Assembly (NCBI RefSeq): GCF_001724715.1
Contig: NZ_MEFG01000012.1
Span: forward strand, 62,001 to 126,000
DNA length: 64,000 nt
Direction of reading: 5' to 3'
Source of the DNA: Sphingomonas sp. SCN 67-18
Lineage (GTDB): Bacteria > Pseudomonadota > Alphaproteobacteria > Sphingomonadales > Sphingomonadaceae
The notes under the pieces are model-generated. The model was not told the DNA's origin. It saw nothing but the letters and a program-made list of their open reading frames with translations, and did no database searches. Shown piece after piece: positions 37,871 through 60,100 of this stretch. Within the stretch, counting starts at the first letter, position 1. Every line of letters starts with the position of its first letter. A program made the position numbers and the translations under genes.

Positions 37871-37886
37871 TGTCACATTTCTAACA
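37871..37886 (-). promoter_or_regulatory. Island operator site 1 (astD/lysR gap)
   Basis: TGTTAGAAATGTGACA (read on the minus strand) fits TGTYA-N6-TNACA. It is 22 bases before the astD start and 55 before the lysR start, so it could act on both. One of six such sites in the island. Confidence 0.7.
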
Positions 37887-37941
37887 GCCTCGATCCGCTC
37901 ATTTCCAACGAGATTGCGGCAATTGCTTATGAGGATATGGA

Positions 37942-38862
37942 ATGAATGACCTGCGCCGCCGCCTGCTCCCGCCCATCGGCGTGCTGCAGAGTTTCGTGAT
38001 CGCGGCGCGGCATGAAAGCGTGTCGGTGGCGGCGCGCGAGACGGGGCTGACGCAGAGCGCGGTCAGCCGCCAGATCGCGCAGCTGGAAGAGATTGTCGGC
38101 CGCCCGCTGTTCCGCCGCTCCGGCCGGCGCATCGTGCTGACCGATGCGGGCGCGGCCTATGCCGGCGCGCTCGGCCCCGCCATCGATGCCATCCGCCGCG
38201 CGACGGGCGAGGCAATGGCCAAGCGGCGCGACGGTGAGTTCACCATCGCCACCCTGCCCAGTTTCGGGATGCGCTGGCTCGCCCCGCGCCTGCCGCAGCT
38301 GACCAGCGCGCACCCCGAGATGGTGGTCAACATCGCCGCCCGTTCCGAGCCGTTCGAGCTGGCGGCGAGCGGTTTTGACGCGGCCATCCATTATGGCCGG
38401 CCGGACTGGCAGAACGCCGCGCACGACCTGCTTTTCCCCGAGGAGTCGGTGCCGGTGTGCGCGCCGGCCTTTCTGGCGGCCCACCCCATCCGGCGCGCGG
38501 CGGACCTGATCGGCTGCCCGCTGCTCGGCCAGTCGCTGCGCCAGTCCGCCTGGGAAGACTGGTTCGCGCTCAACGGGGTGACCGGCCCGGTGAAGCTTTC
38601 CGGCCGGTTCGACCATTTCATGATGCTCGCCCAGGCGGCGGTTTCGGGCGGCGGCGTGGCGATGATGCCGCGCTTTCTGGTGGAGCAGGAACTGGCCGGC
38701 GGGGCGCTGGTCATCCCGGTCGATCGGCCGCTGCAAAGCCGGCTCGCTTATTATCTGGTCTATCCGCACGATCGGCTGGGCTATCCGCTGTTCCGCCTGC
38801 TGCGCGACTGGATCGTGGCGGAAGCGGCGCGGATGCGGCCCGGGGCGGCGAGCGCGGGCTGA
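37942..38862 (+). CDS. LysR family transcriptional regulator (GcvA-like)
   Basis: This 306-residue regulator has an N-terminal winged helix-turn-helix (GVLQSFVIAARHESVSVAARETGLTQSAVSRQIAQLEE) and a C-terminal ligand-binding domain of the GcvA type (FDAAIHYGRPDW). GAGG lies seven bases before the ATG. It is divergent from astBD and is a plausible local activator; its ligand is unknown. It ends in a region of repeats and gene remnants. Confidence 0.92.
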   Translation: MNDLRRRLLPPIGVLQSFVIAARHESVSVAARETGLTQSAVSRQIAQLEEIVGRPLFRRSGRRIVLTDAGAAYAGALGPAIDAIRRATGEAMAKRRDGEFTIATLPSFGMRWLAPRLPQLTSAHPEMVVNIAARSEPFELAASGFDAAIHYGRPDWQNAAHDLLFPEESVPVCAPAFLAAHPIRRAADLIGCPLLGQSLRQSAWEDWFALNGVTGPVKLSGRFDHFMMLAQAAVSGGGVAMMPRFLVEQELAGGALVIPVDRPLQSRLAYYLVYPHDRLGYPLFRLLRDWIVAEAARMRPGAASAG

Positions 38863-38930
38863 ACCGCCGGGCAGGCGGCCGCCGGGCGCTGGTCGGGTTG
38901 CGGGGCACGCGGCGGTGGGACACTGGCCGG

Positions 38931-38962
38931 GTTGCCGGGTTGCCGGGTTGCCGCGTTGCCGG
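38931..38962 (+). repeat. Four tandem copies of an 8-base unit
   Basis: GTTGCCGG is repeated four times head to tail, with one change in the third copy. It lies in the non-coding gap between lysR and the serine hydrolase gene. A degenerate copy (GGTTGCGG) occurs just before it. Confidence 0.85.
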
Positions 38963-38973
38963 GCATGCGGGGA

Positions 38974-39042
38974 CCGGGCGTAGTCCGGGCTGCCCACGGG
39001 CGGATGCGCCACTGGTCCCCACGCCCTTCGCCATCCCGGCGG
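38974..39042 (+). pseudogene. Relic copy of part of the downstream serine hydrolase gene
   Basis: These 69 bases are about 90 percent identical to 40167-40234 inside the following serine hydrolase gene, with six substitutions and one inserted base; the last 26 bases match exactly. The matching codons encode residues about 351-374 (around ADAPLAPTPFAIPA). The copy has no open frame of its own. It looks like the remnant of a second, decayed serine hydrolase gene or of a partial duplication. Confidence 0.7.
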
Positions 39043-39079: not shown

Positions 39080-39095
39080 TGTCATAAAATTGACA
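39080..39095 (+). promoter_or_regulatory. Island operator site 2 (serine hydrolase)
   Basis: TGTCATAAAATTGACA is a near-perfect palindrome fitting TGTYA-N6-TNACA. It ends 19 bases before the ATG of the serine hydrolase at 39115, directly before the purine-rich ribosome-binding site. Confidence 0.7.
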
Positions 39096-39114: not shown

Positions 39115-40728
39115 ATGATATCCAGGCGCACGATGCTCGCGGCGGGAGCCGCATTGCCGGTTCTCGCAATGTCCCGCCCGGGCCGGGCGCAGCCTTTCGG
39201 GCCGCAACCCAGTCTCGCCGCCGCCATGCTCGCCGATTGCCGGGATTACGGCCTTCCGGGCATGGCGACCGCCACGCGCGACGCGGCGGGCGCATCCGCT
39301 TCAGCCTATACCGATGCCGGCTTCACCGATGCGACCCTGTTCGAGATCGGATCGATCAGCAAGTCGCTGGTGGCGATCGCCATCCACCGGCTGGTCGATG
39401 ACGGGCGGTTGGCGCTGGATGCGCCGGTGCAGCCGATCGTGCCGGACCTGCCCTTGCCCGACGCCGCGATCACGCTGGTCCAGCTGCTCGACCATGCCGC
39501 CGGCCTGCCGGACGGCGCGCCGCTCTTTCCCCCCGTGCCGGGCGGGCGCTTGTGGACCGGCTATGCGCCGGGCGCGCGGTTCAGCTATTCCAACACCGGC
39601 TATATGCTGCTGGGCGCGGTGCTGGAGGCGGCGGCGGGCCAGCCCTTCGCGGTCGCGCTGCAGCGGCTGGCGCTGGACCCGATCGGCATGGCGTCTTCCG
39701 TCCCGGTGCTCCGCGCGGCGGACCGGGATCGCTTCGCCACCGGCCATATGATGGCCTTTCCCGCCCGCGCGGCCCGGCCCCATGCGCCGCTCGCCGTCGC
39801 GCCCTGGGTGGATATGGACGACCCGGCCGGATCGGTGGGGGCCACCATGCCGGACATGGCGCGCTACATGGCCTTTCTGGCGGCGGCGGCCAACGGGCAG
39901 GCCAATGGCGTGCTTTCGCCCCGCGCCACCCGCGATTTCGCGATGCGCGACGGCGTTGCCGATCCGGAGGCCGCGCCCGACGCGCGCTATGCCAGCGGGC
40001 TGATCCACCGCGTGATGGCGGGCCGCCGGGTGATCGAACATACCGGCGGTATGTTTTCCTTCTGCGCGTCGATGACCATCGATCTGGCGAGCGGGGCGGG
40101 CTGCTTTGCCGGCACCAACGTGTCGCTGGGCGGCTACCGCCCGCGCCGCATCTCCCGCGAGGCGAGCCGGGCGCTGGCCGGGCTGCCCCCGGCGGATGCG
40201 CCGCTGGCCCCCACGCCCTTCGCCATCCCGGCGGACTGGAAAGGCGCGGGCCGCTGGATCGCCGCCAATGGCGACGTGCTGGCGCTGGACCGCGGCGGCT
40301 GCAGCTTCGCGGGCAAGAGCGCCGGGCTGTGGAGCGGCGGGAGCGGGCTGGTGACCGACCATCCGGCGCTGGCCGACTGGCCGATCGAGACGGATGGCGA
40401 CGGCCTGTGGTGGCGTGATCGGCGCTTCATGCGGTCGCGCCCCGCCCCGGCGCAGCCGACGCCGCCCGCGCTCGCCGCGCTGGAGGGCGTCTATGTCACC
40501 AACGATCCCTGGTATGCGGGCGGCATTGCCGTCATCGCGCGGCGCGGGGCGCTGCACATCGCCGGCGTCGGCGCGCTCGCCGCCCATGCCGACGGCAGCT
40601 GGCGCTTCGACGATCCGGCGCTGGCCTGCGAGCGTTTCTGGTTCGAGAATATCGTCGGCGGGCGGCCGCAGCAGCTCAATGTTTCGGGGAACCTGCTGCG
40701 GCGGGCCGCGCACCGGCGGGACTGGTAG
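39115..40728 (+). CDS. Exported serine hydrolase, beta-lactamase/D-aminopeptidase type
   Basis: The N-terminus has a twin-arginine-like signal (SRRTMLAAGAALPVLA). Residues about 35-340 form a class C beta-lactamase/D-aminopeptidase fold with nucleophile Ser80 in SISK, Tyr158 in YSN and HTGG at 309-312. A second domain of about 190 residues (lipocalin-like, as in D-aminopeptidases) follows. D-aminopeptidases of this fold cut N-terminal D-residues, which suits the island, but substrate is inferred. The 3' end overlaps the convergent S9 peptidase gene by 53 bases. A segment around residue 360 has a relic copy upstream of the gene. Confidence 0.86.
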   Translation: MISRRTMLAAGAALPVLAMSRPGRAQPFGPQPSLAAAMLADCRDYGLPGMATATRDAAGASASAYTDAGFTDATLFEIGSISKSLVAIAIHRLVDDGRLALDAPVQPIVPDLPLPDAAITLVQLLDHAAGLPDGAPLFPPVPGGRLWTGYAPGARFSYSNTGYMLLGAVLEAAAGQPFAVALQRLALDPIGMASSVPVLRAADRDRFATGHMMAFPARAARPHAPLAVAPWVDMDDPAGSVGATMPDMARYMAFLAAAANGQANGVLSPRATRDFAMRDGVADPEAAPDARYASGLIHRVMAGRRVIEHTGGMFSFCASMTIDLASGAGCFAGTNVSLGGYRPRRISREASRALAGLPPADAPLAPTPFAIPADWKGAGRWIAANGDVLALDRGGCSFAGKSAGLWSGGSGLVTDHPALADWPIETDGDGLWWRDRRFMRSRPAPAQPTPPALAALEGVYVTNDPWYAGGIAVIARRGALHIAGVGALAAHADGSWRFDDPALACERFWFENIVGGRPQQLNVSGNLLRRAAHRRDW

Positions 40729-42835
40729 CGTCCGCCGCCGGAACATGGCGGCGCAGGAAATCCTCGATCGCGCCGATATAGCGTTGCTGGTTGGCCATCA
40801 GCCGCAGCGCATGGGCCTCGCCCGGAAAGATCACCGCCTCCGGCGCATGGCCGCGCCGGTCCAGCTGCTGGTAGAGTTCGATGGTCTGGCGCAGCGCGGC
40901 GGATCCGTCTGCGTCGCCGTGCAGCAGCAGCAGCGGCTCATTGCCCCAATGGTCGAGCTGGCTGAGCGAACTGCTGGCCCAGGCGATGCGCTCCACCGCC
41001 ATCCGTTCCGGCAGGTTCAGCGGCAGCGGGCCGCCGCTGTCGCTTTCCATCTCATAGACCCAGTCGGCGACGCCGGCGGAATCGATCCCGGCGGCGAAAA
41101 TGTCGGACCGGGCCAGCGCCGTCGCCACGATATGCCCGCCATAGCTGTGGCCATAGGCGATCATCCGCCGGGGATCGACGAAGGGCAGCGTCTCGGCGGC
41201 CTGGCGCGCGGCGGCGATGAAATCGTCGACATCGTCATTGCCCTTGGCGCCGTAGGCGGCGGGTTCCCGGAAGGCGAGGCCATAGCCGGTGCCTGAGCGA
41301 TAATTGACGCTCAGCACATGATAGCCGCGCGTCAGCAGATAGCGCAGCACCGGCGGATAGCCGAAAAAGCTCTGCCAGACCGGATAGGCCTTGTCGCGCG
41401 ATCCGCCATGGGCGTGGACGATGAGCGGGGCCTTGCCGTCCGCCGGGGCCTGCAGCGATCGATAGAGGGTGGCGTGGACGGTGACGCCGTCCGGCCGGGC
41501 GACGGTCAGCGGCTGGGCGAGGCCGAGCAGGCCGGCGATGCGCGGCGCGGCGGCGCTGGGGGTGGAGACGGCCATGCCCGCATCCGCCAGCGCGCCGACG
41601 CGCAGATGTTCGGGAATGAGGGCGCTCGCCTCGCGCCAGGCGATCCGGCCGTCGTCCAGAAATTGCGGGCCGCTGCGCATCACGCCGCGCGCCGCCGGCT
41701 TGAGCGGCGCGGCGCTGCCCAGCCGGTAAAGGTCCAGACGGTCCGGGTCCGCGCGCGATGGGGCGGCATAGACCAGCGTTCGCCCGTCGGGCGACAAGGC
41801 GGCGCCGTCCACCTCCACCTGCGGGTCGCTGAGCAGTTTCGGTTCGCCGGCACCCGGCGTCCAGCCGTAGAGGGCGCGAAAGCCGGTGCGCTCCCACGGG
41901 AAGACCAGCCGCCCGTCCGCCATGCGGAACAGGTTGGCACGGGCGAACACATCCTCGCCCTCCGCCTGGAACCCGGTCGAATGCTGGCCGGGGCCGCGCG
42001 GCGCCTGCCACTGGTGCAGCATCGCGCCGCTCGCCGGGTCGGCGACGATCAGCGCGAACGGCGCATGGCTGCTGACATCCTCGAACCGCCATGCGCGCGG
42101 TTGCGGCGCCATCCGCATGAAGGCCAGCTGCCGCCCGTCGGCGGACCAGACCGGATTATGGTCGGCGCCCAGGCCCGGCGCCATGAACCGGCCGGCGCGG
42201 CGCGCCACGTCGATCACCGCGACGAAGCTGTAGTCGCCCCGGCCCGCGTCGGATCGATCGACGACATAGGCCAGCCGGCTGCCGTCCGGGGACCAGGCGA
42301 GCCCGCCCACCCGGCTGCGCGCGGTGAGCAGCCTTTGCGCGGCCGCCGGGTCGTCCGCCGGCATCAGCCAGATCTCCTTGCCGCGCGTGAACGCGATCTG
42401 CCGTCCGCCCGGCCCGGCCGTGAAGCCGCTCGCCCCGTCCATCGCCGGCACCGCCGTGGCGCTTCCGTCCAGCGTGACCAGATGGCTTTGCGGCTGGGTG
42501 GGGTCGGGCAGGTTGGCCGGGTTCTGGCGGCTGCCCCGGCGGAACAGGATGCGGTCCGGCCCGCCGAGGAACGCCAGCAGGCGGATCGGCTCGCCATCGT
42601 CGGCGCGGTAATCGGTCAATCGCGACACCACGCCGGACGGTGCACGGTACAGGATGTTTTCCGTGCCGCCCACGCGCTCCACCCAGGCGATGCCGCCGCC
42701 GGGGCCGGGCAGGCTTTCCGTCACGTCGGGGACGGTGAGCACCTCGTCCAGGCTCAGCGGTGCGCCGTCGATTGCCGCCGCAGCCCCGGCGGGCAGCGCC
42801 CAGAGCAGGAGGGCGGGCAGGGCCGCCCATCGCAT
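40676..42835 (-). CDS. Exported S9 family prolyl-oligopeptidase-like peptidase
   Basis: After a signal peptide (MRWAALPALLLWALPAGAAAA) come WD-like repeats of a beta-propeller (GLAWSPDGSRLAYV, NPVWSADGRQLAFM) and a C-terminal alpha/beta-hydrolase domain. The triad is Ser in GHSYGG, Asp in HGDADGSA and His in GEAHALRL. Such enzymes cut oligopeptides in the periplasm. The ATG at 42835 is chosen because it starts the signal peptide and leaves room for the operator at 42871. The product has 719 residues. Confidence 0.92.
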   Translation of the reverse strand: MRWAALPALLLWALPAGAAAAIDGAPLSLDEVLTVPDVTESLPGPGGGIAWVERVGGTENILYRAPSGVVSRLTDYRADDGEPIRLLAFLGGPDRILFRRGSRQNPANLPDPTQPQSHLVTLDGSATAVPAMDGASGFTAGPGGRQIAFTRGKEIWLMPADDPAAAQRLLTARSRVGGLAWSPDGSRLAYVVDRSDAGRGDYSFVAVIDVARRAGRFMAPGLGADHNPVWSADGRQLAFMRMAPQPRAWRFEDVSSHAPFALIVADPASGAMLHQWQAPRGPGQHSTGFQAEGEDVFARANLFRMADGRLVFPWERTGFRALYGWTPGAGEPKLLSDPQVEVDGAALSPDGRTLVYAAPSRADPDRLDLYRLGSAAPLKPAARGVMRSGPQFLDDGRIAWREASALIPEHLRVGALADAGMAVSTPSAAAPRIAGLLGLAQPLTVARPDGVTVHATLYRSLQAPADGKAPLIVHAHGGSRDKAYPVWQSFFGYPPVLRYLLTRGYHVLSVNYRSGTGYGLAFREPAAYGAKGNDDVDDFIAAARQAAETLPFVDPRRMIAYGHSYGGHIVATALARSDIFAAGIDSAGVADWVYEMESDSGGPLPLNLPERMAVERIAWASSSLSQLDHWGNEPLLLLHGDADGSAALRQTIELYQQLDRRGHAPEAVIFPGEAHALRLMANQQRYIGAIEDFLRRHVPAADATSPAGARPAAAGSPKH

Positions 42836-42870
42836 GGTTCCACGATTGAAATATCTCATAGACACAGTTA

Positions 42871-42886
42871 TGATATAAAAATGACA
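42871..42886 (+). promoter_or_regulatory. Island operator site 3 (S9 peptidase / PLP enzyme gap)
   Basis: TGATATAAAAATGACA fits the island palindrome with one change in the left arm. It lies between two divergent genes, 35 bases from the S9 peptidase start and 57 from the PLP enzyme start. An ATG inside it (42881) is in frame with the PLP enzyme but has no ribosome-binding site. Confidence 0.6.
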
Positions 42887-42943: not shown

Positions 42944-44068
42944 ATGCCCATTGCCGCCCTGCCAACCCCCATGCTGTTGATCGACAAGGATAAAATGGCC
43001 GCCAATATCGCGCGGATGCGCGCCCAGCTGGCCGGCACGGGCGTCATCTTCCGCCCGCATGTGAAGACGGCGAAGGCGCCCGATGCGATCCGCGCCCTGT
43101 TCGACGGGGCGACCGGGCCGATCACCGTCTCCACGCTGAAGGAGGCCCGGCTGTTCGCCGAGGCGGGGTTTGACGACATCGTCTATGCGGTCGGCATCGT
43201 CCCGGCGCGGATCCCCGACGTGCTGGCGCTGGCCGACCGCGGCGTGGCGATGCGGATCATCCTGGACGAGCCGGGCGTGGCGGCTGAGGTGGCGGCGCTG
43301 GTCCCCGCCGGGCAGGCCAATATCGGGATTTTGGCGGAGGTGGATTGCGACGGCCATCGATCCGGCGTCGATCCCGATGGCGACGCGCTGCTGCGGATCG
43401 GCGAGACGCTGGCGGCGCGCGGGCTGTTCGCCGGGGTGTTGACCCATGCGGGCGGCAGCTATCAATGCGCCGGGGCGAATGCGATCGCCGGCCATGCCGA
43501 GCTGGAGCGCGCCGGGCTGGCGCGGGCCGGGGAGCGGCTGCGCGCGGCGGGCCTGCCCTGCCCGGTGCTCAGCATGGGATCGACGCCGACCGCGCTGTTC
43601 GCCCGCTCCTATGCCGGGATGACGGAGGTGCGCGCCGGGGTCTATATGTTCCAGGATCTGGTGATGGCCGGCATCGGCGTCTGCGCGCCTGGGGACATTG
43701 CCCTTTCCGTGCTGTGCTCGGTCATCGGCTATCGCCCGGCGGCGGGGCAGATCGTGCTCGATGCCGGCTGGATGGCGCTCTCGCGCGATCGCGGCACCGC
43801 GGCGCAGGCGGTGGACCAGGGCTATGGGCTGGTCGCCGACGAAAATGGCGCGATCATCGACGGGATGATCGTGATGGGCGCCAACCAGGAACATGGGCTG
43901 GCCGGATATCGCGACGGCGCGCCGGTCGATCCGGCCCGTTTCCCCATCGGATCGCGGCTGCGCGTGCTGCCCAACCATGCCTGCGCCACCGGGGCGCAGC
44001 ATGACCGCTATCTGCTGGTCGACGGCGGCCATGTCGACGCGGTCTGGCCGCGCTTTTCCGGCTGGTAA
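42944..44068 (+). CDS. D-serine dehydratase / D-threonine aldolase-like PLP enzyme
   Basis: This is an alanine-racemase-fold PLP enzyme of the D-threonine aldolase/D-serine dehydratase (DSD1) group. The PLP lysine is in RPHVKTAKAP, and the C-terminal metal site NHACAT has His and Cys two residues apart, as in eukaryotic DSD. The family start is PIAALPTPMLLIDKDKM, so I use the ATG at 42944 (374 residues); the ATG at 42881 would add 21 residues and lies inside an operator. RidA follows after four bases, which favours a dehydratase. Confidence 0.85.
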   Translation: MPIAALPTPMLLIDKDKMAANIARMRAQLAGTGVIFRPHVKTAKAPDAIRALFDGATGPITVSTLKEARLFAEAGFDDIVYAVGIVPARIPDVLALADRGVAMRIILDEPGVAAEVAALVPAGQANIGILAEVDCDGHRSGVDPDGDALLRIGETLAARGLFAGVLTHAGGSYQCAGANAIAGHAELERAGLARAGERLRAAGLPCPVLSMGSTPTALFARSYAGMTEVRAGVYMFQDLVMAGIGVCAPGDIALSVLCSVIGYRPAAGQIVLDAGWMALSRDRGTAAQAVDQGYGLVADENGAIIDGMIVMGANQEHGLAGYRDGAPVDPARFPIGSRLRVLPNHACATGAQHDRYLLVDGGHVDAVWPRFSGW

Positions 44069-44072
44069 GGCG

Positions 44073-44477
44073 ATGCGGTCGATCCTCTGCCCGGACGCGA
44101 CGCCGCCGCACGGCCATTATGCCCATGCCGTTGTGCATGGCGGCGTCGTCTATCTGTCCGGCATATTGGGCAATGGCGCGGGTGTTGAGGGCGCGCCGCC
44201 GCCGCCGGTCGACGCGCAGGCCGCCTATTGCCTGGACCAGATCGCGCACATTCTGGCGGCGTCGGGATCGGCGCTGGACCATGTGCTGAAACTGTCCGTC
44301 CATGTCGCCGACCTTGCCGACTGGCCGCGGATCGACGCGCTGTGCCGCGACCGTTTCGGCGCGCATCGCCCGGCGCGCATCGTCGTGCCGTGCGGCGGCG
44401 GCCTGCGGCTGGGATCGCGCATAGAGATGGACGCAATCGCCGCTTGCATCGCCCCTCCGATGCTGTTAGAAAAATAA
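44073..44477 (+). CDS. RidA family imine deaminase
   Basis: RidA proteins hydrolyse reactive enamine/imine intermediates such as 2-aminoacrylate released by PLP-dependent dehydratases. The 134-residue product has the trimeric family pattern: VVYLSGILG, the catalytic Arg in RPARIVVP, and the final RIEMDAIA. It lies four bases after the D-serine dehydratase-like gene and so would remove its product. Its stop codon lies inside operator site 4. Confidence 0.88.
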   Translation: MRSILCPDATPPHGHYAHAVVHGGVVYLSGILGNGAGVEGAPPPPVDAQAAYCLDQIAHILAASGSALDHVLKLSVHVADLADWPRIDALCRDRFGAHRPARIVVPCGGGLRLGSRIEMDAIAACIAPPMLLEK

Positions 44478-44479
44478 CA
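44464..44479 (+). promoter_or_regulatory. Island operator site 4 (deacylase-dgcN-permease unit)
   Basis: TGTTAGAAAAATAACA is the best match to TGTYA-N6-TNACA. It overlaps the ridA stop and ends 40 bases before the deacylase start, so it could drive a second promoter within this rightward gene series. Confidence 0.72.
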
Positions 44480-46040: not shown

Positions 46041-46055
46041 ATGACAGAGGACCGA

Positions 46056-47060: not shown

Positions 47061-47061
47061 C

Positions 47062-49748: not shown

Positions 49749-49755
49749 GGCCGGG

Positions 49756-51177: not shown

Positions 51178-52211
51178 CAGGCCGCCGCGCGGGTGACGGC
51201 AAAGATGCCGGTGGCGTTGCCGCTGTCGAAGGCCAGGTCGATCCGCCCGGTCGCCGGGTCGATGTCGCGGGTGATGAATTCGTAGAAGGAGCCGGGCACC
51301 TCGCGGTCCACCACGGCGCCGTCGTGGTCGCGGAAGCCGCGCAGCACCGGGTCGGCGCGAAAGGCCGTCTGGTGCACGCGGCCGCTGGCCGAATGCTCGA
51401 CCGCCGCCTTGACCGGATAATCGAGCTGCCGCAGCCGGCGCGCCACCGCGTCGACATCGCTCACCCGTTCGGTCGCATGGTTGAAGGCATTGCCTTCCGT
51501 CGCGATCCACGCCGCCTCGGCGGAGCGGGATTTCAGCAGCGCATAGTCGGCAAGCGCGGGCAGGTCGTGGCTGCGCGAAAAGGCCGCCGCGATCACCGGC
51601 AGCAGGCCCTGCGCCTGCGCGAGGCTCAGCCAGCCCCGGCGCTCCAGCAAGGCCAGCACGGCCTGCGTCGCGGGGTCGATGGGGTCGCGGCTCGTCCCGA
51701 ACAGCCGGGCCGCGCTTTCGCCGAATTCAGCGTCGAACTGCGCGACATGCAGTTCGCTGACGAAGAATTGCGGCACCTCCGCCGGCAGGGATTGGTGGCG
51801 AAAGGCATGGCCGGTCATGTGCAGGCGCGGCAGCGGATATGATTCCGCCACCCGGTAGCCCAGCGGCCGCAGGATGCGCGCAAAGGCGTCCGCGCCGCCC
51901 GGCAGCGCGCCGGTGCCCCCGGCCGGAAAGCGGATCGTGCGGACCGCGCCATGGTCCAGCGTCCGGCCGCGCCCGGCCGCCCGCTCCGCCATCACCCAGC
52001 GCCGCGCGGTCGGCACCCGGTCCAGCAGCTCGGCAAAGAGGACGATGTTCAGCGCCATAGCAATCATCCCCCCCTCCACCCGCTCCGGCGCGGCGTCGGT
52101 GAACAGGCTGTCGGCCAGCGCCAGCCCGGTCATCGCCCCGGCCGTCCGGTCCTTGCCCAGCACCGTGCCAACCAATGCCGCCAAAAGCGCCCTGCCGTCC
52201 TGAATCGTCAT
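51177..52211 (-). CDS. hglS: DUF1338 protein, 2-oxoadipate dioxygenase/decarboxylase (HglS-like)
   Basis: HglS, a DUF1338 Fe(II) enzyme from Pseudomonas putida, converts 2-oxoadipate to D-2-hydroxyglutarate in lysine catabolism. This 344-residue protein has the family pattern MTGHAFRHQSLPAEVPQFFVSELH near residue 130 with metal-ligand His candidates, and EGNAFNHATERVSDVDAVA near 240. It is followed by the matching D-2-hydroxyglutarate dehydrogenase. AAAGGGG precedes the ATG. Function is inferred from family and neighbour. Confidence 0.85.
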   Translation of the reverse strand: MTIQDGRALLAALVGTVLGKDRTAGAMTGLALADSLFTDAAPERVEGGMIAMALNIVLFAELLDRVPTARRWVMAERAAGRGRTLDHGAVRTIRFPAGGTGALPGGADAFARILRPLGYRVAESYPLPRLHMTGHAFRHQSLPAEVPQFFVSELHVAQFDAEFGESAARLFGTSRDPIDPATQAVLALLERRGWLSLAQAQGLLPVIAAAFSRSHDLPALADYALLKSRSAEAAWIATEGNAFNHATERVSDVDAVARRLRQLDYPVKAAVEHSASGRVHQTAFRADPVLRGFRDHDGAVVDREVPGSFYEFITRDIDPATGRIDLAFDSGNATGIFAVTRAAA

Positions 52212-52281: not shown

Positions 52282-53616
52282 CTATTCTTTCCGTTTTGGA
52301 ATATGCGAGGGGGCGGGCGGGAGCAGCCTTTCCAGCGCATCGGGCAGGGTGGCGCGCCACTGGATGATGTCGTGCCCGCCGCTATATTCGGAATAGTGAA
52401 CGTCATAACCGTGCGCGCGCAGCACATGGTGCATCATGCGGTTGGGGATCAGCATCAGCGCGCCTTCCCAGCGCCCGACATTCATGTCGATGCGGATATC
52501 GGCCCGGGGTGCGGTGGCATAGCGTTCGATCAGCCAGCCCATATCGGCATCCGGCCCGGCGTCGATCGGCAGGTCCGCCTGCGCTTCGTCCCGGTCCGGT
52601 CCGCAGCAGGCCGGATACCACCAGAGCGACGCCGACTGGGCGATGACATTGCCGAATATGCCGGGATGTTCGAGCGCGCTGTGCAGCGCCGCCAGCCCGC
52701 CATAGCTGGACCCGGCGACCACATTGTCGGCCGTATCGGCGGACAGCGGATAGCGGGCGCGGACGAAGGGGATCAGCTCGTCGGCGATGAAGGCCTGGAA
52801 GGGCGCATTTGGCGGCAGATCGCGTCCGCGCCGCGCATCGTCCATGGGGCTGACCAGCAGTGCGACGGTCGGCCGGATGCGCCCGGCGGCGACCAGCGCG
52901 TCGAGCATGGAGGGCAGCCGCCCGGCGATGCGATAGCTTTCCCTGTCGAAGATCAGCAGCAGCCCCGGCGCGGCCGCGCGCTCGACGCCGCGCGGCACGT
53001 ATACGGAAACGGCGCGCGCCTCGCCCAGCGCCTTGCTGTCGATCCGGTAATCGGTCCAGCGCCCTTGCGGCGGCGCGGCGAACAGCGCCTGCCGGTCGGC
53101 GGCGGCGGGGCCGGACAGCCAGGAAAGGCGGCGGATGCGGCCGTCTTCGCCCTGCTCCTCATAGCTTTGCCGCGCCATCGGATCGGCCAGATAGTCGCGC
53201 CCGCCATCCTCACCCTCGTCATGCCAGACCGCGTCGGGGCGGGGCGCGGCGCGCGCGGGCGTGACGAAATAATAGGAGAAGGCTGCATCCGCCGGCAATT
53301 CGCGGACCAGATAGTGGATGTCCGTCCCGGCCAGCCTTTCCAGCGGCGCGACGTCCCGCCGCTCATCCAGCAGAAAGCCCGCGCTGAGCGCGACGGCACC
53401 GTCCCCCGCCTGCCGCCACAGGAAGGTGACGCGCATCCGGTCCGGCTTGCCCGGCACCGGCTCGACCAGCGGCAGGCGGTCCGCCTGCGCACGCCAGAAG
53501 GCATCCGCCGCGGCCGGCATATCGATCCCCGCCAGCACGGCGGGCGGAGCCGCGCGCCCCGGCATGGTCGTCAGGGCCAGCGCCAGCGCAGCCAGCAACC
53601 CGGCCCGGCGGATCAT
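52282..53616 (-). CDS. Exported Fes-like esterase (enterochelin esterase family)
   Basis: The 444-residue product has a signal peptide (MIRRAGLLAALALALTTMPGRA), an N-terminal domain like that of enterochelin esterase (VTFLWRQAGDG, YYFVTPARAAPRPD) and an alpha/beta-hydrolase domain with nucleophile GSSYGG and a final His in YSGGHDIIQW. Fes-type enzymes cleave siderophore esters, but this one is exported and sits in a peptide-catabolic island. It may cut ester or amide bonds of depsipeptides. It overlaps the upstream serine hydrolase by four bases. Confidence 0.85.
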   Translation of the reverse strand: MIRRAGLLAALALALTTMPGRAAPPAVLAGIDMPAAADAFWRAQADRLPLVEPVPGKPDRMRVTFLWRQAGDGAVALSAGFLLDERRDVAPLERLAGTDIHYLVRELPADAAFSYYFVTPARAAPRPDAVWHDEGEDGGRDYLADPMARQSYEEQGEDGRIRRLSWLSGPAAADRQALFAAPPQGRWTDYRIDSKALGEARAVSVYVPRGVERAAAPGLLLIFDRESYRIAGRLPSMLDALVAAGRIRPTVALLVSPMDDARRGRDLPPNAPFQAFIADELIPFVRARYPLSADTADNVVAGSSYGGLAALHSALEHPGIFGNVIAQSASLWWYPACCGPDRDEAQADLPIDAGPDADMGWLIERYATAPRADIRIDMNVGRWEGALMLIPNRMMHHVLRAHGYDVHYSEYSGGHDIIQWRATLPDALERLLPPAPSHIPKRKE

Positions 53617-55007
53617 GCGCCGCTCAGCCGGATGCGGCCGCGCCGGTCGATCGCGACGATCCAGTCCATATAGCCGCCGCGCGCGATGCCGTAGAGGCGC
53701 TCCGCCCCTTCGATGGCGACGAGCTGGACCTGCTCGTCGTCGGCCAGCGGCCCGCGCTCGACGGCATGGGCGCGCTGCTGGGCGGTGGAGCCGTCGCTGG
53801 CATAGCCGCCGGCGAGATGACGGGCCAGCCGGGCGCGGTCCGCGCGGGTGCGGGCCGGATCGCTGTCGGCGATCGGCTCATAGGGGGCCAGCGCCGGATC
53901 GATCAGCCCGGCGATGCGCGGCGCCCAGCCGGCCGGATAGCCGCGCTCCAAATTGGTGCAGGCCATGATCGCCAGCCCGTCGTCGGGCCAGCGGCCGATC
54001 CACGCGCCGAAGCCGTTCCACACGCCGCTATGCGCCACCAGCCGGTGCCCGCGCACCATGCGGGTGGCCAGCCCCGCGCCGTAATTTTCGAGCGGGTAAT
54101 TGCCGTCGGGAAAGGGTGTCGCCGTCTCGATGGCGCGTTGCGCCTCGGCGGAGATCAGCCGGTTCGCGGCGACCGCGCCTTCCCATGCGATCAGATCGTC
54201 GGCGTTGAACAGCAGGCTGCCGTCGCCGAACTGGTTGATGCTGCGCGAGACGGGGTCCGGCCGCCGGGGCTGGCCGGCCTCGTCGCTCGCATAGCCCTGC
54301 GCCCGTCCCGGCAGGATGGCGTAGATGTCGTCCACCCGCGCGCTCGCCATGCCGGCCGGGGCGAAGACATGGCGCTTCATATAATCGGCGAAGCTCATCC
54401 CGCTCGCCTGCGCGACGATGAAGCCGAGCAGCACATAGCCGGTGTTGGAATAACGGAATTTCGTGCCGGGCGCATATTCCAGCGGCCAGGCGCCGACCGC
54501 GTCGATGAAGGCGTCCGGCGTCCATTCCAGCGCGATGCGGAAATCGGGAACGTCGTCATAATCCTTCAGGCCGGCGCGGTGGCGCATCATCTGGTCTATG
54601 GTGATGCCCGCCCAGCCGGCCGGCGCGCGCGGCAGGTGGCGCGCCACCGGATCGTCCAGCCGCAGTCGCCCGGCCGCCGCCAGCTGCATGATCGCGGTGG
54701 CGGTGAACATCTTGCCGGTGGAGCCGGAGCCGTAGAGATGCTCGGGCCGCGCCGGGGCGGCCAGCTCAAGATGCGAAAGCCCATAGGCCTTGCGGACCAG
54801 CACCCGCCCCTTCAGCATCACCACCAGCAATGCGCCGGGGATGTTCCGCTCCGCCATCGCGCGCGTCACAATGGCGTCCACCGCGGTTTCCGACAGCGCG
54901 CCGGCAGGCCCGTCCGCCAGCGTGGCGGCGATCGACGGCCCCGCGATCAGCGCGGCGCCGGCCGCCCCTGCGGATGCCAGCATGGCCCGGCGTGATATGT
55001 CTTTCAC
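53613..55007 (-). CDS. Exported serine hydrolase, beta-lactamase family
   Basis: This 464-residue protein has a Tat-like signal (KDISRRAMLASAGAAGAALIAG) and the class C beta-lactamase fold with Ser96 in STGK (residues 96-99), YSN in FRYSNTGY and HSG in VAHSGVWNG. A C-terminal domain of about 100 residues follows. The GTG at 55007 has GGAGG eight bases upstream. It starts a leftward unit that could extend through the esterase to the DUF1338/aminotransferase genes. Operator site 5 is 48 bases upstream. Confidence 0.86.
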   Translation of the reverse strand: MKDISRRAMLASAGAAGAALIAGPSIAATLADGPAGALSETAVDAIVTRAMAERNIPGALLVVMLKGRVLVRKAYGLSHLELAAPARPEHLYGSGSTGKMFTATAIMQLAAAGRLRLDDPVARHLPRAPAGWAGITIDQMMRHRAGLKDYDDVPDFRIALEWTPDAFIDAVGAWPLEYAPGTKFRYSNTGYVLLGFIVAQASGMSFADYMKRHVFAPAGMASARVDDIYAILPGRAQGYASDEAGQPRRPDPVSRSINQFGDGSLLFNADDLIAWEGAVAANRLISAEAQRAIETATPFPDGNYPLENYGAGLATRMVRGHRLVAHSGVWNGFGAWIGRWPDDGLAIMACTNLERGYPAGWAPRIAGLIDPALAPYEPIADSDPARTRADRARLARHLAGGYASDGSTAQQRAHAVERGPLADDEQVQLVAIEGAERLYGIARGGYMDWIVAIDRRGRIRLSGA

Positions 55008-55055
55008 CCGTTTGCCTCCTCCCCTAAGCAAGGCATGACGCTTGCTTTACAGGCT

Positions 55056-55071
55056 TGTTACATTAATAACA
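55056..55071 (+). promoter_or_regulatory. Island operator site 5 (serine hydrolase / rpiR gap)
   Basis: TGTTACATTAATAACA is a near-perfect palindrome fitting TGTYA-N6-TNACA. It lies between the divergent serine hydrolase and rpiR-type regulator genes and so can control both, including the regulator itself. Confidence 0.72.
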
Positions 55072-55103: not shown

Positions 55104-55982
55104 ATGCAGGACCTTTTCGCGCGACTTGAGGCGGAGAATGCGAATTACACCGCCGCCGAACGCCAGATCGCGCTGTTCCTCCTGAACAATCGCGAGCTGA
55201 TCCCGTTCGAAACCGCCGCATCGGTGGCCGCCCGGCTTGACGTTAGCGCGGTGACAGTGGGGCGCTTCTGCCGGATGCTGGGGTTCCGCCATTTTCGCGA
55301 GCTGAAGGAACAGCTTCGCGCCTCCGCCAACCTGCCCTGGCTGCAGGGCGCGGACTTCCAGCAGTTCCTTTCCGTGTTCAGCGACAGCGATACGCGGCGC
55401 AAGACGCTGGAGCGCGAAATCGAGCTGACCGTGGCGGTTTACGAACGCTCGCAGAACAAGATCTGGCAGGACGCGGTGGCCGCCATCGCCCGGGCCGGGC
55501 GCATCCAGATCGTCGGATTCCAGACGGAACGCGGGATTGCCGCGATGTTGGCGCACAACCTGCAATATGTGCGCCCGGGCGTGGAGCTGATCGACGGATC
55601 GTCAGGCCATTTCGCCGACGTGCTGCTGGACGAGCCGGACAACCGCTGCCTGATCATGATCGATATCCGCCGCTATTCCAGCCAGTCGCGCCTGCTCGCG
55701 GAAAAGGCGCACGATGCCGGGCTGCCGATGGTGATATTGACCGACACGCTGTGCGACTGGGCACCGCGCCTCACCTCGCACGTGCTGACCGCGGACAGCG
55801 ACGGTGCCCTGTTCTGGCAATCGTCGATGCCGATGGTCGCGCTGGTCAACCTGCTGGTCAACGACGTGGTGGGGCAGGGCGGTGGCCGTGATGTCGAGCA
55901 CCGGCTGGAACGGGTCAGCAAGCTTTATGACGAATTCACCGGCTATGTCCGCGCCGGGCGCAACCGCGGCGGAGGCGCATGA
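55104..55982 (+). CDS. RpiR family transcriptional regulator
   Basis: RpiR regulators join an N-terminal helix-turn-helix to a C-terminal SIS domain that binds phosphosugars or other small acids. In this 292-residue protein the DNA-binding part is FETAASVAARLDVSAVTVGRFCRMLGFRHFRELKEQL (residues about 34-70), followed by a SIS domain starting near 120 (RIQIVGFQTERGIAAMLAHNL). GAGGA precedes the ATG. It is the best candidate to bind the six palindromes, one of which is 32 bases upstream; family members commonly bind such palindromes. It overlaps the M24 gene by four bases. Confidence 0.93.
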   Translation: MQDLFARLEAENANYTAAERQIALFLLNNRELIPFETAASVAARLDVSAVTVGRFCRMLGFRHFRELKEQLRASANLPWLQGADFQQFLSVFSDSDTRRKTLEREIELTVAVYERSQNKIWQDAVAAIARAGRIQIVGFQTERGIAAMLAHNLQYVRPGVELIDGSSGHFADVLLDEPDNRCLIMIDIRRYSSQSRLLAEKAHDAGLPMVILTDTLCDWAPRLTSHVLTADSDGALFWQSSMPMVALVNLLVNDVVGQGGGRDVEHRLERVSKLYDEFTGYVRAGRNRGGGA

Positions 55983-56638
55983 CCCGGCCGGAGGAAGCGA
56001 ACGGCCCGCATTTCGACTGGGCGGGGATGCTGGAGGCGCGCACGCGCACCCGGCAGGCCGTGGCGGATATCGCGGCGGGCATCGAAGTGGGCATGGACGA
56101 GGACGAGGCGCAGCGGGTCGCCCGCGCCGTGCTGAAGGCGGCGGGGCTGCTGCGCGGCTGGCACGGCATCTTCGTGCGTTTCGGCAGCAATACGCTGAAA
56201 TTCTACGGTGAGCCGTCGGAGCCGGGCATCAGGCTGGGCGCGGACGACATCTTCATCGTCGATATCGGCCCGGTCTGGCGCAAATGGGAAGGGGATGCGG
56301 GCGACACCTTCGTCACCGGCGGCGATCCCGACATGGCCCGCGCCCGGCGCGACGTGCGCGCGCTCTATGACGAGACGGCGGCCCATTGGCGGGCGGAACG
56401 GACCAGCGGCGCCGCGCTCTACGCCTTTGCGGAGGCGCGGGCGCGGGCGCTGGGCTGGCGCCTGAACCTCGATCTGGGCGGCCATCGCCTGTCCGATTTT
56501 CCCCACGCGCTGATCCACCGTGGCGAATTGAAGGATACCGCTTTCGTGCCCGCCAGCCGTGCGTGGGTGCTGGAAATGCACATCCGCCATCCCGAGCGCC
56601 CGTTCGGCGCCTTTTACGAGGATCTGCTGCTGGATTGA
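55979..56638 (+). CDS. M24 family metallopeptidase-like protein
   Basis: This 219-residue protein resembles the pita-bread peptidase family (Xaa-Pro aminopeptidase/creatinase). Metal-ligand-like Asp residues occur in FIVDIGPVWRKWEGDAGDTFV, and the second half has GGHRLSDFPHALIH and an acidic EMHIRHPE. It lacks the N-terminal domain of classical Xaa-Pro peptidases. It is between the regulator and astA in one overlapping unit; its substrate is unknown. Confidence 0.8.
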   Translation: MTRPEEANGPHFDWAGMLEARTRTRQAVADIAAGIEVGMDEDEAQRVARAVLKAAGLLRGWHGIFVRFGSNTLKFYGEPSEPGIRLGADDIFIVDIGPVWRKWEGDAGDTFVTGGDPDMARARRDVRALYDETAAHWRAERTSGAALYAFAEARARALGWRLNLDLGGHRLSDFPHALIHRGELKDTAFVPASRAWVLEMHIRHPERPFGAFYEDLLLD

Positions 56639-56653: not shown

Positions 56654-57670
56654 ATGGAGCGAATGATGATGATGGTCCGGCCCGCCTCGGCGCGGGATGT
56701 CGATGGAATGTACCGCCTGGCGCGCGCCGCCGGCCCCGGCCTGACCAATTTGCCGCCGGACCGCGACGCGCTGGCCGAGCGGATCGCCTGCAGCGAGCGG
56801 ACGCTGGCCGGGGCGGTCGCCGCGCCCGGCGACCAGCAGGTGCGGCTGGTGCTGGAAGCGGACGGCGCGTTGCTGGGCGTCGCCGCGATCTGGCCGCGCA
56901 TCGGGCAGGACCGCCCTTTCTACAGCTATCAGCTGAGCGAGCTTTCCCACCTGTCCCGCTCCACCGGGCGGCGGGTGGCGCACCGCATGTTGACGCTGGT
57001 CAGCACGTTGAGCGGCGCGAGCGAGGTCGGCGGGCTGCTGCTCGATCCGGCGGCGCGGGGCAGCGGGGCGGGCAAGCTGCTGGCGCGCAGCCGCTATCTG
57101 TTCATCGCCCGCCACCGGGCGCTGTTCGCTGACCGCGTCGTCGCGGAGCTGCGCGGCTATCAGGATGCAGAGGGCCGCTCGCCCTTCTGGGAAGCGGTGG
57201 GCCGCCCCTTTTACGATCTCGATTTCGAGGAGGCGGACCGGCTTTCCGGCATTCCCGACCATCCGATCATCGAGGAGCTCGGCCCCAAATATCCGCTTTA
57301 TGTGAACATGCTGCCCCGCGCCGCGCGGGATGCGATCAACCGCCCGCACGACCAGGGCTGCGCCGCGCTGGCGATGTTGCGGGCGGAAGGATTTTCGTTC
57401 GGCAATTTCATCGACATCTTCGATGCCGGGCCGACGGTGGTGTGCGACACCGCGCAGATCCGCAGCATCGCCGGCGCGCGGGCGGTGACGCTGGAGGCCG
57501 GGCGGCCGGGCGACGGCGCGCCGGCCCATCTCGTCGCCGCCGGGGCGCAGGCGGATTTCCGCTGCACCATCCTGCCGGTCGACCCGACGGGGGCGGTGGC
57601 GCGGATCGACGGGGCGGCGCTGGCCGGGCTGGGCGGGGCGCAGGCCGAAGCCCACGCCCTGCCGCTCTGA
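56654..57670 (+). CDS. astA: Arginine N-succinyltransferase AstA
   Basis: AstA transfers succinyl from succinyl-CoA to arginine, the first AST step. Conserved segments match the family: VRPASARDVDGMYRLA, LLLDPAARGSGAGKLLARSRYLF (acyl-CoA-binding GNAT loop), VVAELRGYQDAEGRSPFWEAVGRPF and GFSFGNFIDIFDAGPTVVCD. Any of several ATGs in the first 20 bases may be the start; the first gives 338 residues. It is separated from astBD by 19 kb but lies 15 bases after the regulator-peptidase unit. Confidence 0.92.
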   Translation: MERMMMMVRPASARDVDGMYRLARAAGPGLTNLPPDRDALAERIACSERTLAGAVAAPGDQQVRLVLEADGALLGVAAIWPRIGQDRPFYSYQLSELSHLSRSTGRRVAHRMLTLVSTLSGASEVGGLLLDPAARGSGAGKLLARSRYLFIARHRALFADRVVAELRGYQDAEGRSPFWEAVGRPFYDLDFEEADRLSGIPDHPIIEELGPKYPLYVNMLPRAARDAINRPHDQGCAALAMLRAEGFSFGNFIDIFDAGPTVVCDTAQIRSIAGARAVTLEAGRPGDGAPAHLVAAGAQADFRCTILPVDPTGAVARIDGAALAGLGGAQAEAHALPL

Positions 57671-57677
57671 CCCGGGT

Positions 57678-60011
57678 TCAGAAACGCACGCTGCCGCTCA
57701 GCCAGAAGGTGCGCGGCCGCATGGTGAAGCGCGACACATAGGGGTCGCGATAGGGTGAGTTGGTCGCGTTGAAGAAGCGGCCGATATCGGCATAGGTGTC
57801 GAACAGATTGTCGACGTCCAGCCGCACCGTCCAGCGGTCCGTGCCCAGCCGGATGCCGGCGGTGCCGAACATGTAGGACCGCATCCGCAGGTAATTGTCG
57901 TTGGCGCGCAGGCCGCTTTCCTCGTCCGGGTCCGGCACGTCCGGCCCGAAATCGGCATAGCTTCTGCCGGTATAGGTCAGCACGCCGTTGAACCCGAATT
58001 TCAGGTCGCCGCCGACCGCCCGTTCATAATCCAGCGTCAACGATCCGGCATGGCGGGGCACGAAGGGCACCTGCTGCCCCTTCTGGCCGAGGAAATCGAT
58101 GCTTTCCTCCAGCTTGGTGTCGGTGAAGCCGTATCCCAGCCCCAGCGACAGGCCCGGCGCGATCAGGTTCCGGCTGCTGATCTCCAGCTCGAAGCCCTTG
58201 CTCGACGCCTTGCCCGCATTGCCGCTGAGCGGAAAGCCGAGCGAGGTCTGCACCTGCGTCTGGATGTCCTTCCAGTCGATATAATAAGCCGCGCCGCTGA
58301 CATAGAGCCGGCGGTCGAGCAACGACGCCTTCGCGCCCAGCTCATAGCTCCAGATGGTGTCCGGCTTGTACTGGAACTGGTCCGGGGTGATGCCGGTATT
58401 GGCGCCCACCGAATTATAGCCGCCGGGGCGGTAGCCCTGCGCCACCGTGGCATAAAGCAGCGCGTCGTCGGTCAGGTTGTAGGAGGTGTTGAACCGCAGC
58501 ACCGTGCCCTTGTCGGCGGACCGGCCGTTGGACACTTCGTCGGGCAGCGGCGCGGTGCGGGCGGTGCCGCTTTCGTCCCGGGCATCCTCGCCGAAGAACT
58601 GGTCGATATTATAATCGTCGGAAAAGGACGAATAATCGAAATAGCGCAGCCCGACGGAAAACTGCCATTGCGGGGTGATGCGATAGCCGAGCTCGCCGAA
58701 CAGCGCCCATTGCCGGGCGCCCGCAGACGAGACGCTGAGATATTCGGCGGGGTCGGTGAGCGCGAAGCCCAGTATATTGTCCTCGAAATCGCTCTGGCCG
58801 GCGAAGGGCAGGGTGATCGTCTCCTGCAGGTTCAGGTGGGTGCGCTCGCGGTTGTAATAGCCGCCCAGCACGAAGGAGAAGGGGCTGTCGCCCTTCGACA
58901 CCAGCCGCACTTCCTGCGTGAAATGTTTCGATTTGTCCCGCGTCGCGGAGGTGATGTTGAATTCCGGCAGGTCGGCGGGGTCGAGGAAGCTGCCGAAGAT
59001 GACGTCGCGGATATAGGTGGTGCTGTCGCGCCGCGTATGGCCGTTGAACCAGCGGTTCGACGTGGACGAGGTCAGCTGCGCGCGGCCGAGGTCGAGCGAC
59101 ACGGTGAGGTTGCCGATATGCTGGTTGCGGACATAGCGGCCCTCAAAGGCTTCGCTCACCGCGAAACGGCCGAGATCCTCGCCCACCAGGTTGCGCGATC
59201 CGGTTTTCAGGAACTGCCCGTAATAGGTGGCGGTGATGTCCAGCGTCTCGGTGGGTTTCAGCAGCAGCGCGGCGCGGGCAGAGAAAGTGCGGTCCCAGTC
59301 GACGTCCTTGCGCCCCGTCTGGATGTTGTCGACGAAGCCGCCATTGTCGAAATAGCCCAGGTTGACGCGCAGCGCCGCCTTGTCCGTGGCCAGCGGCAGG
59401 TTGACCATGCCGGCGGCCTTCCAGCTCTCGTCCCCGCCGCGCGTGGTGGCGATGCCGGCTTCGGCCGATCCCTCGAACCGGTCGAGCTGCGGCCTGCGGG
59501 TGATGTAGCGCAGCGTGCCGCCGATCGCGCCGCTGCCGTACAGCGTACCCTGCGGCCCGCGCAGCACCTCGACCCGCTCGATGTCGATCACGCTCAGGTC
59601 GAGATCGTTGGGAATCTCGACATCGTCGACATAGATGGCGGTGGTCCGCGAGGTCTGGTTGCCGCCGGTGCGCAGGCCGCGCAGCACCAGGTCAGACCCG
59701 GAATTGGCGCCGCCGTCGATAAAGCTCGCGCCCGGCACAGTGCGGAGGAAATCGACCATCCGCTCCACGCCCTGCGCGGCCAGGTCGTCGCCCGATATCG
59801 CCTGGATGTTGAAGGGCACGTCCTCGATGCGTTCATCGCGCCGGGTGGCGGTGACCACGATCTCGCCCGGATCGGCCGCCTGCTGGGTGGGCGTGGATTG
59901 GGCAGGCGCAGACTGGGCCTGCGCCATGCCGGGCGCCGCCCACGCCAGGAGCGACGTGGCCGCCGCCATGGCGATGCGCTGTCGATGCCGGGTGCGTCGA
60001 TTGTCGATCAT
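57678..60011 (-). CDS. TonB-dependent outer-membrane receptor
   Basis: The 777-residue product has a signal peptide (ending GMAQAQS), a TonB box region (GEIVVTATRRDERIEDVPFNIQAIS), a plug domain (YGSGAIGGTLRYITRRP) and a long beta-barrel ending in aromatic VRF. It would import the island's substrate, presumably a peptide or siderophore-like compound. GGGGAGG lies eight bases upstream of the ATG. Operator site 6 lies 73 bases upstream, in the gap shared with dgcA. Confidence 0.94.
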   Translation of the reverse strand: MIDNRRTRHRQRIAMAAATSLLAWAAPGMAQAQSAPAQSTPTQQAADPGEIVVTATRRDERIEDVPFNIQAISGDDLAAQGVERMVDFLRTVPGASFIDGGANSGSDLVLRGLRTGGNQTSRTTAIYVDDVEIPNDLDLSVIDIERVEVLRGPQGTLYGSGAIGGTLRYITRRPQLDRFEGSAEAGIATTRGGDESWKAAGMVNLPLATDKAALRVNLGYFDNGGFVDNIQTGRKDVDWDRTFSARAALLLKPTETLDITATYYGQFLKTGSRNLVGEDLGRFAVSEAFEGRYVRNQHIGNLTVSLDLGRAQLTSSTSNRWFNGHTRRDSTTYIRDVIFGSFLDPADLPEFNITSATRDKSKHFTQEVRLVSKGDSPFSFVLGGYYNRERTHLNLQETITLPFAGQSDFEDNILGFALTDPAEYLSVSSAGARQWALFGELGYRITPQWQFSVGLRYFDYSSFSDDYNIDQFFGEDARDESGTARTAPLPDEVSNGRSADKGTVLRFNTSYNLTDDALLYATVAQGYRPGGYNSVGANTGITPDQFQYKPDTIWSYELGAKASLLDRRLYVSGAAYYIDWKDIQTQVQTSLGFPLSGNAGKASSKGFELEISSRNLIAPGLSLGLGYGFTDTKLEESIDFLGQKGQQVPFVPRHAGSLTLDYERAVGGDLKFGFNGVLTYTGRSYADFGPDVPDPDEESGLRANDNYLRMRSYMFGTAGIRLGTDRWTVRLDVDNLFDTYADIGRFFNATNSPYRDPYVSRFTMRPRTFWLSGSVRF

Positions 60012-60084
60012 TGTTCATCCCTCCCCTTGCTATGCTCCTTGCCCGGCCGCGGTCTGCGCGCGGTCCGTAACGGTTGCATATCAC

Positions 60085-60100
60085 TGTTAGAAAGATTACA
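60085..60100 (+). promoter_or_regulatory. Island operator site 6 (TonB receptor / dgcA gap)
   Basis: TGTTAGAAAGATTACA fits TGTYA-N6-TNACA. It lies in the 147-base gap between the divergent TonB receptor and dgcA genes. Confidence 0.72.

Follow-up and report, generated by a model that had tools for sequence, protein, structure and literature searches.

Which protein reads a 16-bp palindrome that recurs before the genes of a catabolic island in Sphingomonas sp. SCN 67-18? The window, the whole 64,000-nucleotide stretch analysed here, corresponds to C12:62001-126000 of the 3.22-Mb genome (genomes, contigs and loci carry our G, C and L numbers, this genome being G000), and it holds six copies of the palindrome TGTYA-N6-TNACA around a gene for an RpiR-family regulator (rpiR, 55104-55982). 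Sequence comparison indicates that the six palindromes are in all likelihood operators of this RpiR protein, which would make the island a real, conserved and largely local regulon with a well-supported binder.

An earlier note on this DNA had located the six sites, and its coordinates proved exact. As it had described, five of them (operators 1, 2, 4, 5 and 6 in the table below) fit the pattern exactly in a pattern search of the window, and operator 3 carries a single change in its left arm. With one mismatch allowed, the window contains seven places (14 strand matches), against a mean of 2.8 and a maximum of 7 in 100 dinucleotide shuffles, none of which reaches 14; the seventh place, at 55241 within the rpiR coding sequence, was not among the six listed earlier. 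All six sites lie 19–73 bp from the start codon or codons they face, and four sit in divergent gaps, where the earlier note had placed most of them. The genes faced are astD/lysR, an S12 serine hydrolase, an S9 peptidase and a pyridoxal-phosphate (PLP) enzyme, a deacylase, a second S12 hydrolase (S12b) and rpiR, and a TonB receptor and dgcA. The strand label “minus” once attached to operator 1 says little, because the site is palindromic. Grouped by strand and spacing, and if that grouping is right, the six sites serve ten units: astB-astD; lysR; S12; S9; PLP-ridA; deacylase-dgcN-permease; S12b-esterase-HGLS-FAD (flavin adenine dinucleotide) oxidase-transaminase; rpiR-M24-astA; the TonB receptor; and dgcA-amidase. 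The claim that a site precedes every transcription unit holds only if the S12b-to-transaminase series, whose genes all lie on the minus strand, forms a single operon, as is plausible.

The assignment to RpiR is carried by a weight matrix built solely from the six window sites and applied to other loci. Its best score is at least 20 in all seven other GC-rich loci with a 67–80% identical RpiR: 29.4 in L060 (three matches of at least 22), 27.6 in G200 (five of at least 22), 24.6 in L057 (four of at least 20), 22.6 in both G241 and G084, 21.9 in L059 and 20.0 at a paralog on contig C13 of the same genome. None of 20 dgcN-centred 20-kb control windows without an RpiR ortholog reaches 20, the best scoring 17.1; these comprise 18 of 25 scored dgcN places, chosen by hand, plus two other dgcN copies of G200. 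Smaller controls of ±1.5 kb around dgcN were rejected as unfair, since the window’s own dgcN locus (L090) is siteless at that size (25 of 30 dgcN loci were scored in that set; L090-L094, which belong to the four genomes with the RpiR and to the truncated contig of G276, were omitted). A separate piece of G084 carrying the 3' end of rpiR (L039) gives nothing above 10.5 with the window-only matrix.

In the reverse direction, a matrix from the other genomes ranks the six sites 1–6 in the 64 kb, at 22.0–29.5 bits with the seventh match at 13.9; in its run with fifty block shuffles the shuffled maximum is 20.55, against 21.6–29.0 for the six sites. This test is partly circular, because its training sites were picked by their likeness to the window pattern. 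Leave-out matrices reach at least 20 in 11 of 12 RpiR loci (the C13 paralog being the exception) and in none of the 20 controls (one at 17.3). We rely on the window-only matrix because the leave-out training sites were likewise chosen by window likeness; for G200, an identical G084 site also stayed in.

Comparing the upstream gaps of orthologous islands, a check the earlier note had proposed, places the sites at homologous positions: before the deacylase, before rpiR, and in the TonB/dgcA and S9/PLP gaps, with the position of operator 4 the one conserved most often. The G200 counterpart of operator 3 is TGTCATTTTTCTATCA. RpiR is matched at E<=1e-20 in 17 of 298 family genomes, four times by a close ortholog (own genome included) and 13 times at 39–47% identity; gene counts per genome are lower bounds here and below, and absences hold at the stated thresholds among the matches listed. 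Nine named records carry a 68–80% identical RpiR, including Hyphomonadaceae and a Steroidobacteraceae metagenome-assembled genome (MAG); the contigs of two of them coincide with G241:C3 and G084:C35. The sites, their positions and their co-inheritance with RpiR are read directly from this comparison.

The Steroidobacteraceae MAG (L057) has five matches (18.6–24.6), one at S9/PLP and one each ahead of S12, dgcN, rpiR and dgcA. A large part of the island, together with its operators, is found in this MAG outside the Alphaproteobacteria, with no deacylase before dgcN; this suggests horizontal transfer of the island if the binning of the MAG is right.

The RpiR protein combines an N-terminal helix-turn-helix domain (HTH_6, PF01418; 43.7 bits, cut-off 28.3) with a C-terminal SIS domain (PF01380; 31.2 bits, cut-off 25). 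Canonical phosphosugar-binding SIS residues read SxSGxT. No obvious SxSGxT is found in the SIS region of RpiR, which has GFQTERG and RRYS stretches, common to the aligned homologs with minor changes; because these stand in place of an obvious phosphosugar motif, an amino-acid-type ligand is possible. We infer that RpiR binds the sites as an autoregulated local repressor, with D-glutamate or an N-acyl-D-amino acid the probable inducer. A dimer would bind TGTYA-N6-TRACA beside or over promoters and keep the island closed, its own gene included, until an accumulating intermediate of D-glutamate or N-acyl-D-amino-acid breakdown binds the SIS domain and releases it. Uptake through the TonB receptor and the permease would then be switched on, with peptide and amide hydrolysis (S9, the two S12 hydrolases, M24, esterase, amidase), D-glutamate conversion by way of acylated intermediates (deacylase, DgcN, DgcA) and, in concert, arginine succinylation (AstA, AstB, AstD and the transaminase).

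That RpiR binds these sites as an activator or a dual regulator, rather than as a simple repressor, appears improbable. Within the RpiR family, GlaR and NanR have been reported to act as activators, and RccR acts oppositely at two types of site (PMC5489143). The sites studied here, however, are close to start codons, two of them over promoter-like hexamers and one facing rpiR, and OngR, from a similarly composed cluster, is a repressor (PMC9537276).

The LysR protein encoded at 37942, which the earlier note had kept as the other candidate binder, could in principle act as master activator: its gene adjoins operator 1, and its NCBIfam matches include the GcvA model (260.4 bits, below the cut-off of 288) and the DsdC model. 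Yet none of 22 other family loci with a LysR homolog (about 3.9 kb each), one of them 92% identical, has a site within one mismatch of TGTYA-N6-TRACA, and the window-only matrix gives nothing above 12.7 there. The G200 homolog (58%) lies about 385 kb from the island and those of G241 and G084 (57–58%) are on other contigs; the island stretches of G200, G241, L053-L057 and L060 have no lysR match, and that of G084 only a 21% match. The LysR box has the form T-N11-A, and such a box cannot share the dyad centre, because a 16-bp dyad is centred between bases. A further genome of the family, G082, keeps a cut-down island (L126, G082:C31:128001-147000), astD-lysR-PLP-ridA-transaminase at 81–92% identity, with no RpiR match at E<=1e-20. 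Its LysR is 92% identical, yet its astD/lysR operator, TGCCACATTTCTAACG, retains the spacer CATTTC with one base changed in each arm, and the locus resembles a small natural experiment in which the operator decays where the regulator is missing. With the 0 of 22 LysR-homolog loci and the decay in G082 both disfavouring it, LysR is very unlikely to be the binder; co-occurrence, the control loci and operator decay without RpiR support the earlier reading of one regulon under the RpiR protein.

Genome-wide counts point to the same local distribution. TGTYA-N6-TNACA occurs exactly at 9 places in the 3.22 Mb, 5 of them in the island, and the strict pattern, TGTYA-N6-TRACA, at five. Four of these belong to the island; the fifth also speaks for RpiR, lying 5.7 kb from the gene for a second RpiR protein in a region whose 40 kb yielded no dgcN homolog. 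G200, a single contig of 4.53 Mb, has five strict sites; a stretch of 10.9 kb around rpiR takes in four of them, including an intragenic one, and the six other dgcN genes listed for this genome have no strict site within 20 kb. Summed over the four genomes with a close RpiR, the strict pattern occurs 21 times against 7 for the reversed control pattern; over 16 further genomes of the family, of which 12 lack any RpiR match at E<=1e-20 and 4 have a distant one, it occurs 44 times against 44, that is, at chance level. None of the 19 listed dgcN copies outside the island in G200, G241, G084 and G000 is within 20 kb of a strict site. A CRP/FNR-type global regulator, although its consensus TGTGA-N6-TCACA shares the 5-6-5 geometry, length and spacing, is scarcely credible as the binder, given strict sites that are not global in the own genome, counts at control level in genomes lacking a close RpiR, and no CRP-type gene identified among the island genes scanned. 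dgcN-like genes occur in 81 of the 298 family genomes at E<=1e-60, with at least seven each in G200, G241, G084 and G252, a large paralog family, and two in G000.

Several observations weigh against RpiR as the reader of these sites. One-mismatch matches in the own genome number 47, against 50 for the reversed control (64 against 77 in G200), which means that sites cannot be predicted from the loose pattern by itself. Only 2 of the 8 strict sites of G084 are at the island, the other 6 lying elsewhere. The Sphingopyxis island (L059, RpiR 80% identical) has no site within one mismatch; all it carries is TGTAAATTATATTACA, a variant located at dgcA, besides two sites that have decayed. The strict site near the second RpiR of the own genome (C13, 78% identical) lies not before its rpiR but before genes for a sulfotransferase-domain protein and a TonB receptor, and it scores only 17.6 with the wider matrix. 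The dgcN region on contig C16 of the own genome, with no RpiR nearby and outside the 20 controls, reaches 18.7 with the window-only matrix and 21.2 (all-site) or 22.8 with others. The AT-rich RpiR loci L053-L056 (38–42% GC) have best scores of 20.3, 20.3, 24.1 and 19.9, with other matches close behind, and carry little weight because several matches of similar height lie elsewhere in them. Promoter-like hexamers overlap only operators 2 and 3, the latter covering a -10-like hexamer at 42869-42874; none was found at operators 1, 4, 5 and 6. Finally, 12 loci with a distant RpiR (39–47% identity) were searched close to rpiR for TGWYA-N-TRWCA dyads, with no chance control, and the N6 form turned up in only five (L040, L041, L044, L045, L062).

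Three of these 12 loci have other spacings only (L064, L065, L066) and four have none (L042, L043, L061, L063); L043 does contain a 16-mer that departs from the main pattern at no more than one base. Six loci with a 38–42% identical RpiR (L046-L051) show such a 16-mer just upstream of rpiR in L046, L047 and L049 and none in the other three. In favour of RpiR as binder, TGACAGAAAACTATCA is found about 97 bp upstream of the aligned start of an RpiR with 42% identity that comes from a different family. The recognition helices differ, VSEPSV (L062) against VSAVTV, and we hypothesize that this difference would fit a T-to-A change at the third arm base, within the few clades compared.

Other places in the own genome resemble parts of the island. 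The C13 locus (L123, G000:C13:50000-62000) combines the second RpiR with a TonB receptor and a homolog (66%) of astA; a degenerate site lies about 30 bp upstream of its rpiR. On C16 (L122, G000:C16:45000-64000), operator-like dyads lie at 17729 and 3006-3060 near the second dgcN and are possibly targets in trans or chance matches. AT-rich candidates are found at C12:129652 (about 20-21), outside the window after a TonB receptor gene, and at C15:68076 (about 21-22), flanked by genes for a DUF3667 protein and an aldehyde dehydrogenase. These two and C16 have no clear link to the island and may include further targets. A match on C34 (L009), before an XRE-like gene and with its arms repeated upstream, was set aside as another motif.

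The seventh place in the window falls in the DVSAVT codons of the DNA-binding helix of rpiR. Palindromes within the helix-turn-helix codons of rpiR also occur at G200:C1:2735069, L060:4966, L052:10138, L038:470 and L033:50; G200, G241, G084 and L060 match the pattern exactly, and the copies in the window and the C13 paralog deviate from it at one base each. These six related homologs (G084 partial) share 144 invariant residue columns. The codon for T51 is ACA in all six and that for V50 is GTA in five. Both codons are rare, as 21 genes of the window use ACA for 7 of 422 threonines and GTA for 4 of 628 valines. T51 is the sole four-fold-degenerate invariant column with A or T as third base in all six. 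The site is not kept in L059 and L057, and L053-L056 are too AT-rich to judge. Its matrix scores are low (8.2–8.4 in G200, G241 and L060, 6.8 in G084) and its centre is GC-rich; because of this, and of the six homologs being related, we hold a seventh operator of the form TGTYA-N6-TRACA here to be possible but on the doubtful side. Equally tentative is the wider proposal that the island and its operators form a self-regulated cassette passed from one class of Proteobacteria to another. If the intragenic operator is real, the same stretch of DNA would encode the DNA-reading part of the repressor and be read by it.

Operators and genes of the island, with window coordinates (strand “.” for palindromic sites).
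Feature	Coordinates	Strand	Remarks
Operator 1, TGTCACATTTCTAACA	37871..37886	.	divergent gap astD(-)/lysR(+)
Operator 2, TGTCATAAAATTGACA	39080..39095	.	before S12 serine hydrolase; right arm within promoter-like TTGACA
Operator 3, TGATATAAAAATGACA	42871..42886	.	gap S9 peptidase(-)/PLP enzyme(+)
Operator 4, TGTTAGAAAAATAACA	44464..44479	.	overlaps ridA 3' end, before deacylase-dgcN-permease
Operator 5, TGTTACATTAATAACA	55056..55071	.	gap S12b(-)/rpiR(+)
Operator 6, TGTTAGAAAGATTACA	60085..60100	.	gap TonB receptor(-)/dgcA(+)
Candidate intragenic operator, CGTTAGCGCGGTGACA	55241..55256	.	helix-turn-helix codons of rpiR; outside top 16 window matrix matches
astB, N-succinylarginine dihydrolase	35138..36412	-	start approximate
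astD, succinylglutamate-semialdehyde dehydrogenase	36421..37848	-	
LysR regulator	37942..38862	+	GcvA-like below curated cut-off; rival binder
S12 serine hydrolase	39115..40728	+	beta-lactamase fold
S9 peptidase	40676..42835	-	ATG at 42835 read from sequence
PLP enzyme	42944..44068	+	D-serine dehydratase / 3-hydroxy-D-aspartate aldolase-like; start read from sequence
RidA-like protein	44070..44477	+	start approximate
Amidohydrolase	44520..46040	+	probable N-acyl-D-amino-acid deacylase
DgcN-like	46041..47060	+	466 bits, DgcN equivalog cut-off 480
Amino acid permease	47065..48486	+	start approximate
Acetyl/succinylornithine-type transaminase	48546..49748	-	AstC role proposed
FAD-linked oxidase, GlcD-like	49756..51180	-	start approximate
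HGLS-type 2-oxoadipate dioxygenase/decarboxylase	51177..52211	-	
Enterochelin-esterase-like hydrolase	52282..53616	-	
Second S12 serine hydrolase (S12b)	53613..55031	-	
RpiR-family regulator	55104..55982	+	HTH_6 + SIS (Pfam PF01418, PF01380); proposed binder
M24-family protein	55979..56638	+	
astA, arginine N-succinyltransferase family	56654..57670	+	
TonB-dependent receptor	57678..60011	-	
dgcA, N-acetyl-D-Glu racemase	60159..61175	+	
Amidase	61166..62563	+	

Among the island enzymes, DgcA (420.8 bits, cut-off 400) and AstD (624.2, cut-off 579.3) pass their equivalog models. AstA (335 over 284) and AstB (522.6 over 452) pass subfamily cut-offs and stay under the equivalog ones, and the transaminase is over the acetylornithine-type subfamily cut-off and under that of the AstC model; no AstE was found among the genes scanned. 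The HGLS-type dioxygenase, GlcD-like FAD oxidase and transaminase lie side by side at 48546-52211, a set that suggests lysine/2-oxoadipate breakdown via D-2-hydroxyglutarate. An orthologous island in Sphingosinicella microcystinivorans (G241) raised microcystin breakdown as a role, which a search for PF07364, a family we take to be MlrC-type, led us to reject: the own genome and two of the three relatives searched lack a match, and the four matches in G241 are all on contigs other than that of the island.

The island encodes a DgcN-like protein and DgcA, as in the DgcN-DgcA pathway of D-glutamate catabolism. The primary work on these enzymes is that of Yu et al. 2023, cited in PMC12363236, whose accessible text gives no regulator or operator of the pathway; DguR is named in the accessible part of a paper on LysR regulators. 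We found no paper on an operator or RpiR regulator of dgcN or D-glutamate in the open-access literature, which omits the primary DgcN paper. The earlier remark that no description of this operator was known is uncontradicted there, which is not proof of absence. By protein family, the best NCBIfam match of RpiR is SapR of Burkholderia (150 bits, cut-off 500), which shares the HTH_6 and SIS domains; unlike the present protein it is described as a surface-protein regulator, and the accessible text gives no operator (PMC9884982). By gene content, the closest likeness is the ong cluster for oxidised chitin in strain ACAM 620, in which the RpiR-family repressor OngR stands beside RidA and two putative enzymes, a D-aminoacylase and a D-amino acid deaminase; its substrate, however, is a sugar acid, dgcN, dgcA and ast are not among its eight listed genes, and no operator of OngR is given in the accessible text (PMC9537276). 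By operator, the precedents are HexR and RccR of Pseudomonas, RpiR-family proteins that bind TGT...ACA-armed pseudo-palindromes, TTGT-N7-8-ACAA and TGTAGT-N3-ACTACA, respectively (PMC5489143). They differ from the window system in arms and spacing, in their central carbon targets and in the ligand 2-keto-3-deoxy-6-phosphogluconate, and against the HexR model the window RpiR scores 28.1 bits, far under the cut-off of 296.

In sum, one local switch would control the whole peptide- and D-amino-acid-consuming island, with sites that very probably travel with RpiR between bacteria. Since dgcN-like genes are common, a diagnostic operator helps in predicting which of them share their regulation with the uptake of peptides and the breakdown of arginine. 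Set beside HexR and RccR, the proposed regulon is ordinary in kind and new in content, in that a regulator and an exact 16-bp operator can be putatively assigned to a D-amino-acid island of the DgcN/DgcA type.

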